Shown: positions 15,429 through 35,560 of the stretch, in pieces
How positions within the stretch are numbered: the stretch's first letter is position 1
How the letters are laid out: each line of letters starts with the position of its first letter
Source: an uncultured Pelagibacteraceae bacterium
GTDB taxonomy: Bacteria > Pseudomonadota > Alphaproteobacteria > Pelagibacterales > Pelagibacteraceae
DNA: 64,000 nucleotides
Assembly: GCA_902579465.1 (NCBI GenBank)
Contig: CACHGV010000001.1
Span: 124,001-188,000, forward strand
Direction: 5' to 3'
Position numbers and translations under genes: made by a program
The notes under the pieces: generated by a model
The model's input: only the letters and a program-made list of their open reading frames with translations
Database searches by the model: none
Told to the model about the DNA's origin: nothing

Positions 15429-15600
15429 TAGTTTTTGGCACGTCGTTGTATGCGCTACCGCCATGCCGTCCACCCTACAATTTTAGCGCTACTCTGCAGA
15501 GCTTTCTGCCCTCTGGGCTTGAACCTCTCGGTTTTTCCCCAGCTGGTCAGTTAAGAGTTGCCTCTTAATTCACTTTAAACAATATCAGATAGAGTAGGTT
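15386..15600 (-). ncRNA. Putative structured non-coding RNA or leader RNA of unknown family
   Basis: Closing stem CUACUCU/AGAGUAG, three hairpins (GCAA and GAGA tetraloops), pseudoknotted GCGCUA/UAGCGC, UUGUA/UACAA and GGCAUG/CGUGCC pairings, terminator; locally elevated GC; no credible ORF. Confidence 0.65.
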
Positions 15601-16326: not shown

Positions 16327-16364
16327 TCTTCTACATTAAATGCTTGACTTATTAAATGAGTTAT

Positions 16365-16405
16365 ATTATTACTAGTGATAATTAATTGTTATCAATAGTA
16401 ATAAT
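16365..16405. repeat. 17-bp inverted repeat (16/17 match, 7-nt loop) abutting the recombinase start codon
   Basis: ATTATTACTAGTGATAA (16365-16381) ttaattg TTATCAATAGTAATAAT (16389-16405), then ATG 16406. Confidence 0.9.
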
Positions 16406-17362
16406 ATGAATGAGCTAACTACTGAATTAAAATCACTTCATGATGAAACATTAAAAAACCTCAAAAGCTCAAAAGCTGATAATACTTTGAGGGCTTATAA
16501 GTCCGATTTTAAAGATTTCGGTGTGTTTTGTGCTAATCATGGCTTGAATTCATTGCCAACTGAGCCAAAAATAGTTTCATTATATCTAACTCACCTCTCT
16601 AAAAAATCAAAAATAAGCACATTAAGACGAAGATTGGTGTCAATTAGTATGGTACATAAGTTGAAAGGCCATTACTTAGATACCAAACATCCAATTATAA
16701 TTGAAAATTTAATGGGAATAAGAAGGATGATAGGAAGCATTCAAAAAGGTAAAAAACCGTTATTAATCAATCATTTAAAAATAGTTATTAAAGTAATAAA
16801 TGAACAAAAAACTGAAGAAATAAAAAAATTAAGAGACAAATCCATAATCTTAATTGGCTTTGGAGGTGGATTTAGAAGAAATGAATTAATGTCAATAGAT
16901 CATGAAGATTTAGAATTTGTTCCTGAAGGTCTAAAAATAAATATTAAAAGATCAAAAACTGATCAATTTGGTGAGGGAATGACCAAAGGAATACCCTACT
17001 TCACTAATGAAATTTACTGCCCAGTTAAAAACTTAAAAAAATGGTTAGAAATTTCTAAAATTAAGACTGGGCCAATATTTAGAAGGTTTTCAAGAGGTTT
17101 GACATTAACAGATAAAAGATTAACAGACCAATCCGTAGTTTTGATAATTAAAGAATATTTGAAATTAGCAGGAATCGATAACAAAAATTTTGCAGGTCAT
17201 AGTTTAAGGTCAGGTTTTGCTACAGTAGCGGCAGAATCTGGTGCTGATGAGCGAAGCATAATGACTATGACAGGCCACAAATCAACACAAATGGTTAGAA
17301 GATATATTAGAGAAGCAAATATATTTAAAAACAATGCGTTAAATAAAATTAAGATTGAATAA
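16406..17362 (+). CDS. Tyrosine recombinase / phage-integrase family protein
   Basis: GGFRRNELM, HSLRSGFATVAAESGADERSIMTMTGHKSTQMVRRYIRE: Arg, HxxR, GH and Tyr all present. Confidence 0.93.
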   Translation: MNELTTELKSLHDETLKNLKSSKADNTLRAYKSDFKDFGVFCANHGLNSLPTEPKIVSLYLTHLSKKSKISTLRRRLVSISMVHKLKGHYLDTKHPIIIENLMGIRRMIGSIQKGKKPLLINHLKIVIKVINEQKTEEIKKLRDKSIILIGFGGGFRRNELMSIDHEDLEFVPEGLKINIKRSKTDQFGEGMTKGIPYFTNEIYCPVKNLKKWLEISKIKTGPIFRRFSRGLTLTDKRLTDQSVVLIIKEYLKLAGIDNKNFAGHSLRSGFATVAAESGADERSIMTMTGHKSTQMVRRYIREANIFKNNALNKIKIE

Positions 17363-18134
17363 AATTTGAGAAAAAATGATCGTCATCGATTGAATAGTGA
17401 TGATTAAAATTATTTTTTCTTAAAAAATCAAAAACATTTTTTCTTTGATTTTCCATAACTTCTACTTGTAAAAAAATATTGTTATTGAGAATAAAATTAC
17501 AACCACCTTTTAAAACATTTAATTCGTGTCTTTCAACGTCAATTTTAATTAAAATTTTTTTTCCTATCAAGTTCTCAAAAATCGAGTCTAAAGTGTCTAA
17601 TTTAACGGTTTCGTAGATAATTTTTGATTTATCATATTTATAAATTTCATCATCTAATGTATTTAAAACAGACGAACCCCCAGTTTTATTTAGATCGCTA
17701 TACCAAATTTTATCACTACCTTTAGTATTGGATAAAGCAAGATTATATATATTTATCTTAGATTTATTTAACTGAATATTTTTTTTTAGTTTTTCATAAT
17801 TTAAATTGTTGGGTTCAAAAGCATAAACGTTAGGTATTAATTTCTCGTGATAAAAAAACAATGAATAGAATCCTTTATATGATCCAATATCAAAAAAATA
17901 CTCAAATTTATTATTCATTAAATAATTTTCTAAGAAATCAAATCTGTCCTTATCATAATAACTTGTAAGAAAAATTTCTCTATCAATTGAGTCTGAAAGT
18001 GATAAATACATTTTAAAACTATAAATATCAAAAATAATCAAGCCACCAACTTTTCTTAGTAAAGATGGAATTGCTCTTTTAAATAATTTAAAACTATATA
18101 AATATCTGGAAATTTTTAAAAAATAATTATTCAT
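17349..18134 (-). CDS. FkbM-family methyltransferase
   Basis: FFDIGSYKGFYSLFF, YAFEPNNLNYEKLKKNI, LIKIDVERHELNVLKG. Confidence 0.88.
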   Translation of the reverse strand: MNNYFLKISRYLYSFKLFKRAIPSLLRKVGGLIIFDIYSFKMYLSLSDSIDREIFLTSYYDKDRFDFLENYLMNNKFEYFFDIGSYKGFYSLFFYHEKLIPNVYAFEPNNLNYEKLKKNIQLNKSKINIYNLALSNTKGSDKIWYSDLNKTGGSSVLNTLDDEIYKYDKSKIIYETVKLDTLDSIFENLIGKKILIKIDVERHELNVLKGGCNFILNNNIFLQVEVMENQRKNVFDFLRKNNFNHHYSIDDDHFFSNFIQS

Positions 18135-19087
18135 TATAAATTTTCAATAATTTTTCTACTAAGGTTATCAAAATCTTCTCTTATAATTTGAACTTTATTA
18201 TAAAAATGATGATTATAGGATGAAAAAAATTTAATTTCTGAATTATCAACTATATCAATAACTTTTATATTATAATTAGAAGCTATATGAGATGGTGCAC
18301 CATGACATGATATTAGACAATTACTATTTTTAATTAAAAATTGAAGTTCAAAAATATTAATTTTATCTTTTATAACTACATTTTTATTATTATTAATATA
18401 ATTGCTGATTTTTAATTCTTCTAAAAGCGGGTTCTCAAAAAATCCGTTTACAATAATAACTTTATTATTTTTGGATAAAATTGAGAGGAAATTAACAAAC
18501 TGTACAAAAGTAGGTTCGATATTTTTATATGTTTTAATATAATTTTTAAATATCCATTTTTCATCAAAATTTAAAATTATATATTCAAAATTTAATTTTT
18601 CATAATTAAGGAATTTTTTGTTTTCAAAATTTAATAGAAAATTTAAGTCTGTTGAATTAAAATCACAATTAATATTTGAGAGAAAACTTTTAATTAAATG
18701 GATCTTTGGAATATTGTAATCAATAAAATAAACATTGTTAAAAAAATATTTAAATAAGCTTTTAATCGAGGAGGATGGAGTGAATAGTGTTTTATTCGGT
18801 GAACTTTTAAAAATAGAAGTATAAATAGATCTTTTTTTTCCATCTAAAATTAGAATATGATCATAATTATTTAAAGATAAATATAAGGAAAATTTATTTA
18901 AAAAATTTTCTGGGTACAGAAAAACCTTATTAAAAAAATTGAAACTTTTAACATAATCATAGTTTAAATTAGAGCAAACTATATCAATTTTACAATTTTT
19001 AAATTTACGTTTTAAAGATGAAAATATAGGCGTAGAAACTAAAAAGTCCCCTATTCTATCTGTTCTAAAAACTAGAATCTTATCCAC
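18134..19087 (-). CDS. Glycosyltransferase family 9-like (heptosyltransferase-type)
   Basis: ILVFRTDRIGDFLVSTPIFSSLKRKFKNCKIDIVCS; CLISCHGAPSHIAS. Confidence 0.85.
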   Translation of the reverse strand: MDKILVFRTDRIGDFLVSTPIFSSLKRKFKNCKIDIVCSNLNYDYVKSFNFFNKVFLYPENFLNKFSLYLSLNNYDHILILDGKKRSIYTSIFKSSPNKTLFTPSSSIKSLFKYFFNNVYFIDYNIPKIHLIKSFLSNINCDFNSTDLNFLLNFENKKFLNYEKLNFEYIILNFDEKWIFKNYIKTYKNIEPTFVQFVNFLSILSKNNKVIIVNGFFENPLLEELKISNYINNNKNVVIKDKINIFELQFLIKNSNCLISCHGAPSHIASNYNIKVIDIVDNSEIKFFSSYNHHFYNKVQIIREDFDNLSRKIIENL

Positions 19088-19111
19088 TAAAGCTACAAAG
19101 ATTAGTCATAT

Positions 19112-19750
19112 TCATTTCTCAAACAAACATATTTTTTCATTAAAATTTAGATTTAAAGAATATTTATCGCTTATAAATTTAGCTTCCTCTAGAGACATTA
19201 TATTTTCTGAATTCCCACTAATTTCTTTTAATTTATAGTGAAATAGTTTTTTAAAATTAAAAGATAATTTTGGAACAATATTTTTATACCAATTCATGCC
19301 CTTTCTAGAAGTTATTAATATACCATTATCATTAAGCATTTTAAAAAGGTTATCTATAAAATAATAATAAGACATTTTGCAACAACTGTATGATTTAATG
19401 TTATTATCTACTATTATATCAAATTTTTGATTATGAAATAAATCATAAAAATTTGTAGAAAATTTATCACATAAATAAACTTTATAATTATCTAAATTAA
19501 GATTATTAGCTTTAAATATCTCATGAGATGAAACTGAAATGCCAAAGACAATATTCTTATTTAATATCACTTGAGCAAAATATGAATTTCCAATACCTAC
19601 ATGTAAAATTTTTTTATTTTCTAAATTAATGTTTTTTTTTAAATGATGAATAATTTCTTTTTCATCACTTGTTGAACTTCTATCCTCCCAATATGAATAG
19701 TTATTTTTAAAGTTAGGTTTTGAGCAATTACAAATGTAGCTGTTTTTCAT
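19112..19750 (-). CDS. Class I SAM-dependent methyltransferase-like
   Basis: KKILHVGIGNSYFAQVIL, FDIIVDNNIKSY, MLNDNGILITSRKG. Confidence 0.65.
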   Translation of the reverse strand: MKNSYICNCSKPNFKNNYSYWEDRSSTSDEKEIIHHLKKNINLENKKILHVGIGNSYFAQVILNKNIVFGISVSSHEIFKANNLNLDNYKVYLCDKFSTNFYDLFHNQKFDIIVDNNIKSYSCCKMSYYYFIDNLFKMLNDNGILITSRKGMNWYKNIVPKLSFNFKKLFHYKLKEISGNSENIMSLEEAKFISDKYSLNLNFNEKICLFEK

Positions 19751-20438
19751 TATATTTTATATCCTCATAAAAAGTTTTAAGTTTTAAGAAAATTTTAAGC
19801 CTAGATAGATCGTTGGACATATGAATACGAGGTATAAAAAACTTTTTATGTTTAAGTGTATTAAATCTAGATCTAACAGTAGTTACACCAAATTTATACT
19901 CTTCTTTAACTGTATTAGCAGAAAAATTATTTACTTGACCAAAAGGATAACTAAATGAGTCAATATTTGATCCTATAAAATCTTGTATTATATTTTTAGA
20001 ATTATAAATTTCATCCTTAATTTGTGCTTCATTTAAAGTTGTAAGTGACATATGTGATTTACCATGGGAGCCAATAGACATTCCATGACTTAACCATTCG
20101 ACTAAATCGTTTTTTGTTAATAGTTCTTTGTAAACATAACTTTTGTGTCCTGTATCCCATTTATTAGATTCACCAATAAAATCTGAAACTACAAAACAAG
20201 TAGAGACAAAATTATATTTTTTTAGAATAGGTAAAGCATTAATGATATTGTCTTTATATCCATCATCAAAAGTTATTATTATCGGCTTATTAATATTTTT
20301 ATGAGTTTCATTTAAAGAGATTGAATTGAAACCAGACTTACTTAAATAATCTAGCTGATTTTCAAAATTAGTAATACTTACAGACAAATGAGATTTATCA
20401 TTTGATATTGAATGATACATCAAAACTGGAATAATCAA
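19728..20438 (-). CDS. Polysaccharide deacetylase family protein
   Basis: VLMYHSIS, PIIITFDDGYKDN, IGSHGKSHMSL, SFSYPFG (NodB homology motifs). Confidence 0.93.
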   Translation of the reverse strand: MIIPVLMYHSISNDKSHLSVSITNFENQLDYLSKSGFNSISLNETHKNINKPIIITFDDGYKDNIINALPILKKYNFVSTCFVVSDFIGESNKWDTGHKSYVYKELLTKNDLVEWLSHGMSIGSHGKSHMSLTTLNEAQIKDEIYNSKNIIQDFIGSNIDSFSYPFGQVNNFSANTVKEEYKFGVTTVRSRFNTLKHKKFFIPRIHMSNDLSRLKIFLKLKTFYEDIKYNEKQLHL

Positions 20439-22544
20439 CTAAAACTCCCAAATATATTTTTTTTTAGAATTTATATTAAAAGTTTTATTTATCATGTATT
20501 CTGTAACTAAATTTGAGTTCATATATTTATGATATTTATTATAGCCAGCCTTAGCAATATTTATTCTTAATTTATCGTTGTCTAAAAGACGTTGTATCTT
20601 TTTGCTTAAATCTTCAATATTTGAGTAAAAAACGACTTCATTATTTTTAAAAATTTTATCTAGCATAGTTGCTTTCTCAACAAATGTTAAAATTCCATTT
20701 CCAATAAGTTGTGCAATTCGGTCACTGCTATAAAACTTCATAGGTCTGCCTTGACTTAAATTTAGTGCCATTTTTGAAAGTTTAAGTTTCCTTTTAAATT
20801 CATCTGCCCAAATTGGTTGTTTATTGGTCATTCCATAAATATCAAATTTAATATTAGTGTTTTTTTTAATTAAATCTTGAATAAAATATTCTCTATTATC
20901 GATTTTTCCTTTTTTTAAAACACCTCTATGAACGCCATGTGACATTGCAAAAAAAATATCATAAACGAAGTTTTTATTTTTAAAAACTTGCATATTATCT
21001 AATGTTGGATCGACAGGATTTGGTATATAATAACAAGATTTTTGATTAAGTTTAATTGCACTTGGTGCAGTTGTACAAAAATTACTGTCCATAAGTTTGT
21101 ATTTTTGAAGAAATCTTTTTTTATTATGAAGCCAGTCTTTATTATCCATTTTATCAAGAAACCATTGTGCAAATTTGATATTTGGATAAAATTTTTTTAT
21201 TTTTATAATTGTTTCATTGGAAATCATATCGGCATGACCCATTAAAATTAAGTCTGGCTTAAAATTAGCTGTAATATCAAGAAGTTTGTTATTTAATGTT
21301 TTTGATCCTTTATAATCTTTTATAGATTTTTCAAAACTGATAACATCACGATCACTCAACGTGACAACGGAATTTAAATTTCTTATTAGTCCATTATTTA
21401 TTCTTCTACCAGTATTGTAGAACAATCTGGCATTATGTCTTATATTAAAGTTTGTTACATGAATTATTTTTTTTGTTTTACTATATAGATCGTATTTATC
21501 CGTCATTAATTCATATCTATAATTATCAATAATTTTTGATATAAAATTATCAGTAAGATAAAAGTTTTTTAAACTTTTATATTGTAAAAGTTTTAATTTT
21601 TTTTCATCTTCGATTAAAGATTTTACAGAATTATAAATATTACTTTCATTCAAATTCTTAATAATAATTGCATCGGTTACTGTTTCCTTAAGACCACCTT
21701 TGTCACTAATAATTACTGCACATCCTCTACTTGATGCTTCTAGACTTGATCTCCCAAAAGGTTCATTCCACCTTGAGCATGCAACTGATATTGATACCTC
21801 TTCTAATTTTTTTAATATATATGAATGTTCTTTAAATCCAAAGTTAATATATCTTGGGTGCTCAAAATTAAGTTTTTCTCTGGGCTCATCTCCAAATACA
21901 TAAACTTTCCAGTCTTTATAATTTTTTAAAATTTTAAGTGATGCTTTGCCAAACAAGTCATAACCTTTTGAAGAATTAAGTTTTCCTACAAAAGCAATAA
22001 TTTTCTTTTTCTTGTTTATATTAACTTTTTTTCTATTTGTTGATTGATGTATTACTATTAACTTTGTAGAATTTTGATAGAATTTATCTAGATTTGATGT
22101 GAATTGATCTTTGGTCCAGTTACTATTAAAAATTATTTTATCACAATTATTAATTAATGATATTCTCTCTTCAATTTTTTCTGAACCACTGATTGATAGA
22201 GGATCATTATGAAAATATAAAACAAATTTTCTATTTTTAAGATGTTTTAAAGATTCCAAATATTTTGGCCTATTATGAACTTCAATTATATTAGATTTTC
22301 TTTTATTTTCTATTTTTAAAAAGTTATTTAAATAAATTTTTGTTAAACTCTTAAAATATCTTTTTTCTAAAGGTATATTTACATAGTTTTTTGAAAATCG
22401 CTGTTTAAGATCTGTGTTACCAAATATTCTTATATTTTTTTTATACCTACTTAATTTGCTTACTGCATTAATAAAAATAGAAACTGCTCCAGCATAATCG
22501 GGAGAATAATTTTCTTTATAGGGTAATAGTATTGAAATTTTCAT
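20439..22544 (-). CDS. Two-domain glycosyltransferase (GT4-like N-half plus second GT-B/CgeB-like half); ATG at 22544, track TTG at 22559
   Basis: IIAFVGKLNSSKGYDLFG...EPFGRSSLEASSRGCAVIIS; second half DLILMGHADM...GRPMKFYSSDRIAQLIGNGI. Confidence 0.85.
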   Translation of the reverse strand: MKISILLPYKENYSPDYAGAVSIFINAVSKLSRYKKNIRIFGNTDLKQRFSKNYVNIPLEKRYFKSLTKIYLNNFLKIENKRKSNIIEVHNRPKYLESLKHLKNRKFVLYFHNDPLSISGSEKIEERISLINNCDKIIFNSNWTKDQFTSNLDKFYQNSTKLIVIHQSTNRKKVNINKKKKIIAFVGKLNSSKGYDLFGKASLKILKNYKDWKVYVFGDEPREKLNFEHPRYINFGFKEHSYILKKLEEVSISVACSRWNEPFGRSSLEASSRGCAVIISDKGGLKETVTDAIIIKNLNESNIYNSVKSLIEDEKKLKLLQYKSLKNFYLTDNFISKIIDNYRYELMTDKYDLYSKTKKIIHVTNFNIRHNARLFYNTGRRINNGLIRNLNSVVTLSDRDVISFEKSIKDYKGSKTLNNKLLDITANFKPDLILMGHADMISNETIIKIKKFYPNIKFAQWFLDKMDNKDWLHNKKRFLQKYKLMDSNFCTTAPSAIKLNQKSCYYIPNPVDPTLDNMQVFKNKNFVYDIFFAMSHGVHRGVLKKGKIDNREYFIQDLIKKNTNIKFDIYGMTNKQPIWADEFKRKLKLSKMALNLSQGRPMKFYSSDRIAQLIGNGILTFVEKATMLDKIFKNNEVVFYSNIEDLSKKIQRLLDNDKLRINIAKAGYNKYHKYMNSNLVTEYMINKTFNINSKKKYIWEF

Positions 22545-22797
22545 TTTTTTTGTATTCAAGTATTAGTTCATTTCTCAATTTATAATTTTTTTTAAGTTTG
22601 TATTCTTCTTTCATAGCTATTATTTTACTATTATATTTTTTTAAATATACGATTTTCCACCTTCTTCCTCTTGTAAATTTTGCACCTTTGGAGTTATTGT
22701 GAAGATATAACCTATTACTTATATTATTTGTATAACCTACGTAAGATCGATATTTATCAGATTTTTTAGATAATATTAAATATACACAATATATCAT
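22516..22797 (-). CDS. GIY-YIG domain protein (UPF0213-like)
   Basis: YCVYLILSK...RSYVGYTNNISNRLYLHNNSKGAKFTRGRRWKIVY. Confidence 0.9.
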   Translation of the reverse strand: MIYCVYLILSKKSDKYRSYVGYTNNISNRLYLHNNSKGAKFTRGRRWKIVYLKKYNSKIIAMKEEYKLKKNYKLRNELILEYKKNENFNTITL

Positions 22798-34167: not shown

Positions 34168-34829
34168 TTATGCTTAATTCTTTTGAGAAGTTCTGAAGCT
34201 GCAGATTGCTCTGCATTTTTTTTTGAAGATCCAATTGCATAAACATATGTACTATTTTTAAGTTTAACACCAACTTTAAAATTTGGTTTATGTCTTGGAC
34301 CTGTATTAGAGATTAGTTTATAGATAGGTAATATTTTATAATTTTTCAAAGAGTATTCTTGAAGTTGTGTTTTAGCATCAATAAAAGTAGTTTCTGCATC
34401 ATTTATTAAATTTTTCCATAGTTTAAGGATAAAACTTTTAGAAACTTCAAAACCTTTATCTAAATAAATAGCTCCAATTAATGCTTCACAACAATCAGAG
34501 ATAATCTTATTTTCAACTATATTATTTCTCGTTTTTGAATTACCTGTAATTATAAATTCTTTAAGGTTTAATGAATTTCCAATTTCTAGACATTTATTTT
34601 TATTAACTAAAGAGGCTAATTTTTTATCTAATGACCCTACTTTTTCGTTAGGATAAAGCTCATACAATTTTTTTGAAACAACAAGTCCTAGTACTCTATC
34701 ACCTAAAAATTCAAGATTTTCATAATTATTATTTGGATCATAACTTTTGTGAGTAATAGCTTGCAAAAGGATTTGCTCATTTTTGAAATTTATTTTAATC
34801 TTTTTTTGAAGGTACTTAAGAGTGCTCAT
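34164..34829 (-). CDS. rnc: Ribonuclease III
   Basis: YENLEFLGDRVLGLVVS, CCEALIGAIYLDKG, dsRBD C-terminus. Confidence 0.96.
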   Translation of the reverse strand: MSTLKYLQKKIKINFKNEQILLQAITHKSYDPNNNYENLEFLGDRVLGLVVSKKLYELYPNEKVGSLDKKLASLVNKNKCLEIGNSLNLKEFIITGNSKTRNNIVENKIISDCCEALIGAIYLDKGFEVSKSFILKLWKNLINDAETTFIDAKTQLQEYSLKNYKILPIYKLISNTGPRHKPNFKVGVKLKNSTYVYAIGSSKKNAEQSAASELLKRIKHK

Positions 34830-34831
34830 AA

Positions 34832-35560
34832 TTAATCAATAAATTTGAAAAATCTATTTAACCTTAATATTTCATTCCAATTCCAAAATTTAACAATACT
34901 TCCTACAAATGGATCTGATGAAAAAAACAATATTTGAGCTTTGCCCACAAGATTATTTTTATGGACATATCCAACTTCGGATAAAAACCTACTATCTTTT
35001 GAGCAATCCCTATTATCCCCTAAGAAAAATAAATGGTCTTTTGGAACAAGGTATTTATCTGTGTTAGCGAAAGTAATATCAGTTCTGTATGATGCCAAAT
35101 AAACTTTGCCGTTTGGAAGTTTTTCCTCAAATGTGTTAACTTTTATTTTTGATTTACCACAATAATTAGTGATATTTTTTGATTTAATTGTTTTTAAAAT
35201 TTGATTGCCATTTAGGTAAAGATCACCATTAATAAACTGAATTGTATCACCTGGTAAACCAATTACACGCTTTATATAATCTGTTCTATTATCGGCCGGT
35301 GTTTTAAATACTGCAACGTCACCTCTTTCAGGATTATGGGTAAAAATACGGTTTTCAAAAATAGGTGGACTAAATGGAAAGGAATGTTTGCTATAACCAT
35401 ATGAGTATTTAGTGACAAAAAGTCTATCTCCAACTAATAAATTTGGTTCCATAGATGATGAAGGAATATAAAAAGGTTGCAATAAAATAGATCTAATTAA
35501 AACTGCAATGATAAGTGCATAAATTATAGTTTTAAGATTTTCAATTATTATTTTTTTCAT
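34832..35560 (-). CDS. lepB: Signal peptidase I
   Basis: FYIPSSSMEPNLLVGDRLFVTKYSYGYS, DYIKRVIGLPGD, FLGDNRDCSKDSR. Confidence 0.96.
   Translation of the reverse strand: MKKIIIENLKTIIYALIIAVLIRSILLQPFYIPSSSMEPNLLVGDRLFVTKYSYGYSKHSFPFSPPIFENRIFTHNPERGDVAVFKTPADNRTDYIKRVIGLPGDTIQFINGDLYLNGNQILKTIKSKNITNYCGKSKIKVNTFEEKLPNGKVYLASYRTDITFANTDKYLVPKDHLFFLGDNRDCSKDSRFLSEVGYVHKNNLVGKAQILFFSSDPFVGSIVKFWNWNEILRLNRFFKFID

Follow-up and report, generated by a model that had tools for sequence, protein, structure and literature searches.

A putative dif-like recombination site and its single tyrosine recombinase at the chromosome terminus of Pelagibacteraceae

A near-perfect inverted repeat that abuts a tyrosine recombinase gene, in a 64,000-nucleotide (nt) stretch of DNA from an uncultured Pelagibacteraceae bacterium (contig CACHGV010000001.1; the whole stretch is called the window here), is very probably the dif site of a single-recombinase dif/Xer system, which would resolve chromosome dimers in this family in place of XerC/XerD. 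The hallmarks of such a system occur together, namely one site per chromosome with two inverted arms around a short centre, linkage of that site to the recombinase gene, a location at the terminus, a recombinase with intact catalytic residues, an FtsK with a gamma domain, and one recombinase where the XerC/XerD pair is missing, and they constitute strong sequence evidence for this reading.

SAR11 bacteria are among the most abundant cell groups in the sea. Pelagibacter ubique was reported to be without dif/Xer by Carnoy and Roten (2009), who ascribed this to loss through genome streamlining and raised the question of a substitute, no Cre-like replacement being known in dif-deficient proteobacteria (PMC2731167). 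Our literature search returned no description of a dif/Xer system in SAR11, although an earlier mention of integration by HTVC010P-type phages may exist. The defined site and enzyme described here are a candidate for the substitute, and they would represent a replacement of XerCD within one bacterial order by an enzyme whose nearest kin are a plasmid family, as well as a sequence-level route for the integration of SAR11 phages that carry no integrase.

Conservation of the site and its recombinase

The first-pass annotation had described a near-perfect 17-bp inverted repeat at 16365..16405 (no strand assigned), and its sequence, coordinates, 16/17 arm pairing and the ATG from 16406 proved correct. 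No other 17-bp inverted repeat in the window pairs at 16/17 or more across a loop of 12 nt or less, and 40 first-order Markov simulations gave a mean of 0.075 such repeats per window; this rarity is suggestive rather than proof that the repeat is real, a matter that is settled by its conservation. The conserved part, the putative dif-like site, excludes the species-specific outer 3 bp of either side and spans 16368..16402 on the forward strand (14 + 7 + 14 bp), with a left arm ATTACTAGTGATAA (16368-16381), an asymmetric 7-bp spacer TTAATTG (16382-16388) and a right arm TTATCAATAGTAAT (16389-16402), all on the forward strand. It is near-invariant and present in a single copy per genome. Upstream on the same strand are a -35 element, TTGACT (16344..16349; TTGACA in most relatives), and, after a 17-nt spacer, a -10 element TATTAC (16367..16372) that overlaps the left arm and is predicted from sequence and conservation. 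The weak promoter proposed at first pass is conserved among relatives, with TTGAC starting 33 nt before the site core, a fixed distance, in 105 of 110 distinct contexts.

At all 130 Pelagibacteraceae loci compared, the site is 5'-adjacent to the recombinase gene, with the exact core in 128; the other two (L237 and L282) both have the spacer TTATTTG, and L237 shows a compensating symmetric change in its arms. Mean information over 98 contexts of the form that we call type A was 1.97 bits in the core versus 1.38 in the adjacent first codons and 0.95 in the upstream DNA, i.e., the 35-bp site is conserved above the level of neighbouring coding sequence. The nearest relatives carry the type-A site ATTACTAnyGATAA-TTAATTG-TTATCAATAGTAAT, and remoter ones retain the type-A arms with the spacer TTAATGG. 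A type-B site, TTCCGATAA-TTAATGG-TTATCGGAA, belongs to a second recombinase group of about 58-66% protein identity; between types A and B the left and right arms switch together, and the asymmetric 7-bp spacer (TTAATKG) is nearly fixed. The complete genome of a sister genus (G380) has TTCCGATAA-TTAATTG-TTATCGGAA immediately 5' of its recombinase orthologue. Allowing one mismatch at most, the core was present in 140 of 201 genus genomes, mostly once and just 5' of the gene (reversed control, about zero), and it is single in the window's own genome (1.11 Mb searched, 27 contigs, 79% complete), with no further copies of the arms within the window. The suggestion in the first-pass annotation that the repeat is a recombination site with the core layout of tyrosine recombinases, for which a search for the same arms at recombinase loci of relatives was the proposed check, is strongly supported by this comparison across all 130 loci and by copies in phages; its stated refuting outcome, orthologues lacking the repeat and no further copy in any genome, was thereby contradicted. 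The annotation had not noted the position at the terminus, the missing XerCD or the mimics in phages. Its further suggestion of inversion or excision in the genome found no support, the site being single in each genome.

The recombinase gene (16406..17362, forward strand) encodes a protein of 318 amino acids (aa) with a match to PF00589 (E 3.4e-20), the sole such match in the window's own genome. Its catalytic set, assigned by motif, comprises R157, K184, H265, R268, H291 and Y300 and is invariant in 19 orthologues. An orthologue was detected in 142 of 201 genus genomes, including 24 of the 29 near-complete ones, and a search for PF00589 itself gave a match, mostly exactly one, in 103 of 113 near-complete genus genomes. 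Named relatives of the locus are exclusively Pelagibacteraceae or Pelagibacterales. The predicted structure (mean predicted local distance difference test score, pLDDT, 72.7) has Cre as its nearest fold (Foldseek E 8e-11), followed by XerA and XerH, and the protein falls under the equivalog cut-offs of the XerC, XerD, XerA and XerS models. An identity as XerC or XerD was rejected on scores of 60 and 67 bits (about 60-80) against cut-offs of 335 and 330, and on a position in the tree outside the XerD of the sister family; an identity as XerS was rejected on 44-58 bits against a cut-off of 267.

Terminus position and probable replacement of XerC/XerD

The position of the site was compared with the terminus given by a two-breakpoint GC-skew fit to sampled 20-kb stretches (27-60% per genome) of five complete genomes, G203 and G216 being left out. 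Offsets were -3.2%, 0.0%, -4.5%, +0.3% and +2.9% of genome length, which places the site within about 5% of the terminus in 5/5 genomes (random-position probability about 1e-5). Local GC skew in the window is governed by gene orientation and was left out. FtsK with a gamma domain was found in 30 of 31 genomes. Genomes of the sister family retain a XerC/XerD-like pair, with two strong matches each to the XerD model (307-325 and 244-257 bits; cut-off 329.6), whereas Pelagibacteraceae have one weak match (about 58-87 bits) across their genera. Most simply read, XerC/XerD disappeared from Pelagibacteraceae and the single recombinase assumed their role. Two recombinase monomers would then bind the two arms, four would pair the two copies of the site that a chromosome dimer contains, and exchange of strands over the asymmetric 7-bp spacer would return monomer chromosomes, with FtsK possibly aligning and activating the complex at the terminus-located site.

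The closest relatives of the enzyme outside the family are found largely on plasmids, with tblastn matches in 2,108 of 72,556 plasmid records versus 8 of 50,697 phage records, and some of the plasmid relatives adjoin ParA, ScpA or toxin-antitoxin genes. In the tree the SAR11 enzymes stand next to a plasmid and alphaproteobacterial group, distant from the XerD of the sister family; judged by sequence, the large plasmid-borne family is the nearest kin of the SAR11 enzyme. Relatives at E ≤1e-30 occur in 16 alphaproteobacterial genomes outside Pelagibacteraceae, and 7 of the 16 loci read outside the family have a dif-like core, RATAA...TTATY, upstream of the gene at a varying distance, with a centre of 7 bp in six of them and 6 bp in one. 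Comparable sequences lie 5' of the gene in the Iodobacter plasmid pl1 (TCACGATAA-ctgtca-TTATCGTGA) and in Aureimonas pAU20g (TTCCGAAAA-gaagcc-TTATCGGAA); beside the gene of several Gram-positive plasmid relatives, a dif-like site was looked for and none was found. The Methylobacterium plasmid pVL1_6 (L333) carries perfect 9-bp arms of different specificity (CACTCGCCA-cagatca-TGGCGAGTG) 42 nt before its gene, which may be the plasmid's own resolution site.

Two neighbours of the site were also noted. An Rfam IMES-2 RNA (15435-15575, reverse strand, 158.7 bits) lies about 0.8 kb to its left, in a GC-rich stretch (15.4-15.6 kb) for which a guess of transfer-messenger RNA was wrong; a search of 11 divergent loci placed IMES-2 no more than 2 kb from the site in 4 of them, so that the RNA has a tendency to lie near the terminus. 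Directly after the recombinase, at 17349-22559, there is an FkbM methyltransferase gene with cell-surface sugar genes, so that a variable surface-gene region adjoins the terminus.

Mimics of the site in pelagiphages

In IMG/VR, 29 contigs contain the site core, and the recombinase is encoded by none of them. Of the 29, 20 match the arms of type A or type B when one mismatch is allowed, and L079 and L092 have half of the type-B arms only; the 17-bp core without arms in L071, L075, L090, L094, L095, L096 and L099 was taken as chance. In the four viral contigs that were fully read, the site is in non-coding DNA flanked by the gene for the terminase large subunit and a small gene located upstream of the terminase. 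A search of 50,697 phage records with the type-A 36-mer matched two, HTVC100P and HTVC035P, both Pelagibacter phages, and the type-B form matched HTVC106P, with weak matches in Salmonella phages. In the pelagiphages the site is composite, the type-A-like mimic coming first and the type-B-like mimic no more than a few bases after it (L098, 4213-4273; HTVC100P, MW273924, ~34319-34377; HTVC106P, MN698244, ~35375-35437), as if these back-to-back mimics were made for both host recombinase types.

HTVC100P, HTVC035P and HTVC106P, all cultured SAR11 phages, have a clear mimic and no PF00589 protein, and HTVC028P, the sole integrase carrier among nine phages tested, has no mimic. A mimic of the host dif and the lack of an integrase, as seen in these three phages, are marks of an integrative mobile element exploiting Xer (IMEX), and the annotations of HTVC106P and HTVC100P include repressor-like regulators. 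It is possible, though we would put it at slightly less than an even chance, that some of the abundant HTVC010P-type pelagiphages are temperate, lack an integrase and rely on the recombinase of SAR11 instead, that their composite attachment site opens both host types to entry, and that the host system originated as a plasmid resolvase and replaced XerCD in resolving chromosome dimers. Separately, one contig of a genome assembly (G178:C20) carries a pelagiphage-like terminase twice in inverted orientation; the probable cause is an artefact of amplification or the capture of an infecting phage.

Competing explanations and known systems

The overlap of the site with the predicted -10 box, and the constant distance of the -35 box, would also suit an operator, on which the recombinase or another dimeric protein bound to the palindrome blocks the promoter without any recombination. 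An operator alone, however, has no need of an invariant asymmetric spacer, a terminus location or copies in phages without the gene, and the dif-like cores of relatives outside SAR11 lie at varied distances from the gene; we consider it unlikely. The autoregulatory operator proposed at first pass would be a side function rather than the reason for the site: the recombinase may repress its own gene, since the -10 box of the gene promoter lies within the left arm, and such autorepression is a plausible side effect. That annotation also raised a hairpin in RNA next to the start codon; the idea that such a hairpin, or an attenuator, controls translation draws on the good fold of the full 41-nt repeat (z -3.8). 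The transcript from the conserved promoter, assumed to start about 7 nt after the predicted -10 box, would begin within the left arm and lose most of it, and in that form it folds no better than shuffles (z +0.35); moreover, the near-invariant loop is asymmetric, and copies of the sequence lie in intergenic DNA of phages that do not have the gene. The hairpin claim is weak, and we hold this mode of control to be very improbable.

The integrase superfamily to which the protein belongs, and the cell-surface gene cluster adjoining its gene in the window, might instead point to an integrative element, such as a degenerate prophage or island, with the recombinase as its own product and the repeat as its attachment site. 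This, too, is improbable, and more so than the operator, as the recombinase is a core gene with one orthologue family-wide, a single site per genome and no second att copy, its relatives are overwhelmingly from plasmids (2,108 records) and not phages (8), and flanking direct att repeats have largely failed to appear in many genomes. Tyrosine invertases work on short inverted repeats, and the adjacent surface genes could be the target of a phase-variation invertase; yet with only one site in the genome there is no invertible segment, nor are there arm copies elsewhere in the window, and we give this explanation almost no credence.

Several results weigh against a single-recombinase dif/Xer system. 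Ten of the 113 near-complete genomes have no PF00589 match; most of them are 90-95% complete, and the absences may be assembly gaps. The terminus fits rest on the partial skew sampling given above, and G201 is the weakest case, its terminus being 4.5-9% from the site with unstable fits (8.9% in a combined GC+AT fit). A heptamer search for an FtsK-orienting motif showed a general purine-rich bias only. No lysogen was found at the site in 399 genomes by a search for related terminases; integration at the host dif, a further mark of an IMEX, was thus not seen, and a role of the mimics in integration is hypothetical.

Among known systems, XerS/difSL of streptococci and lactococci and XerH/difH of Helicobacter and Campylobacter likewise combine one recombinase, a gene-linked site, the terminus and FtsK. 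The SAR11 protein is nevertheless shorter than XerS (318 versus about 356 aa) and scores far under the cut-off of the XerS model, and unlike difSL, its site has long, almost perfect arms and a spacer of 7 rather than 11 bp. The XerL/dif system of Legionellales, discovered by Nicholson et al. (2022) via a dif-mimic element (PMC9765430), is similar in having just one recombinase, in a lineage reported as devoid of dif/Xer, long uninterrupted arms, a dif mimic on an integrase-less mobile element, and a plasmid link. XerL, compared here by its description, is longer, with its catalytic Tyr at ~387, and dif of L. pneumophila lies >400 kb from the gene, whereas the SAR11 site abuts its gene (PMC9765430). 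XerC/XerD-dif shares inner arms of the form ATAA...TTAT flanking a short centre, the terminus, the FtsK gamma domain and the catalytic residues, and differs from the one recombinase, one gene and symmetric arms of SAR11. Finally, Cre/loxP and the plasmid-borne tyrosine resolvases are close in that the nearest predicted fold is Cre and the nearest sequence family resides on plasmids; identity to Cre is 18%, however, and the SAR11 gene is a chromosomal core gene with its site at the chromosome terminus.
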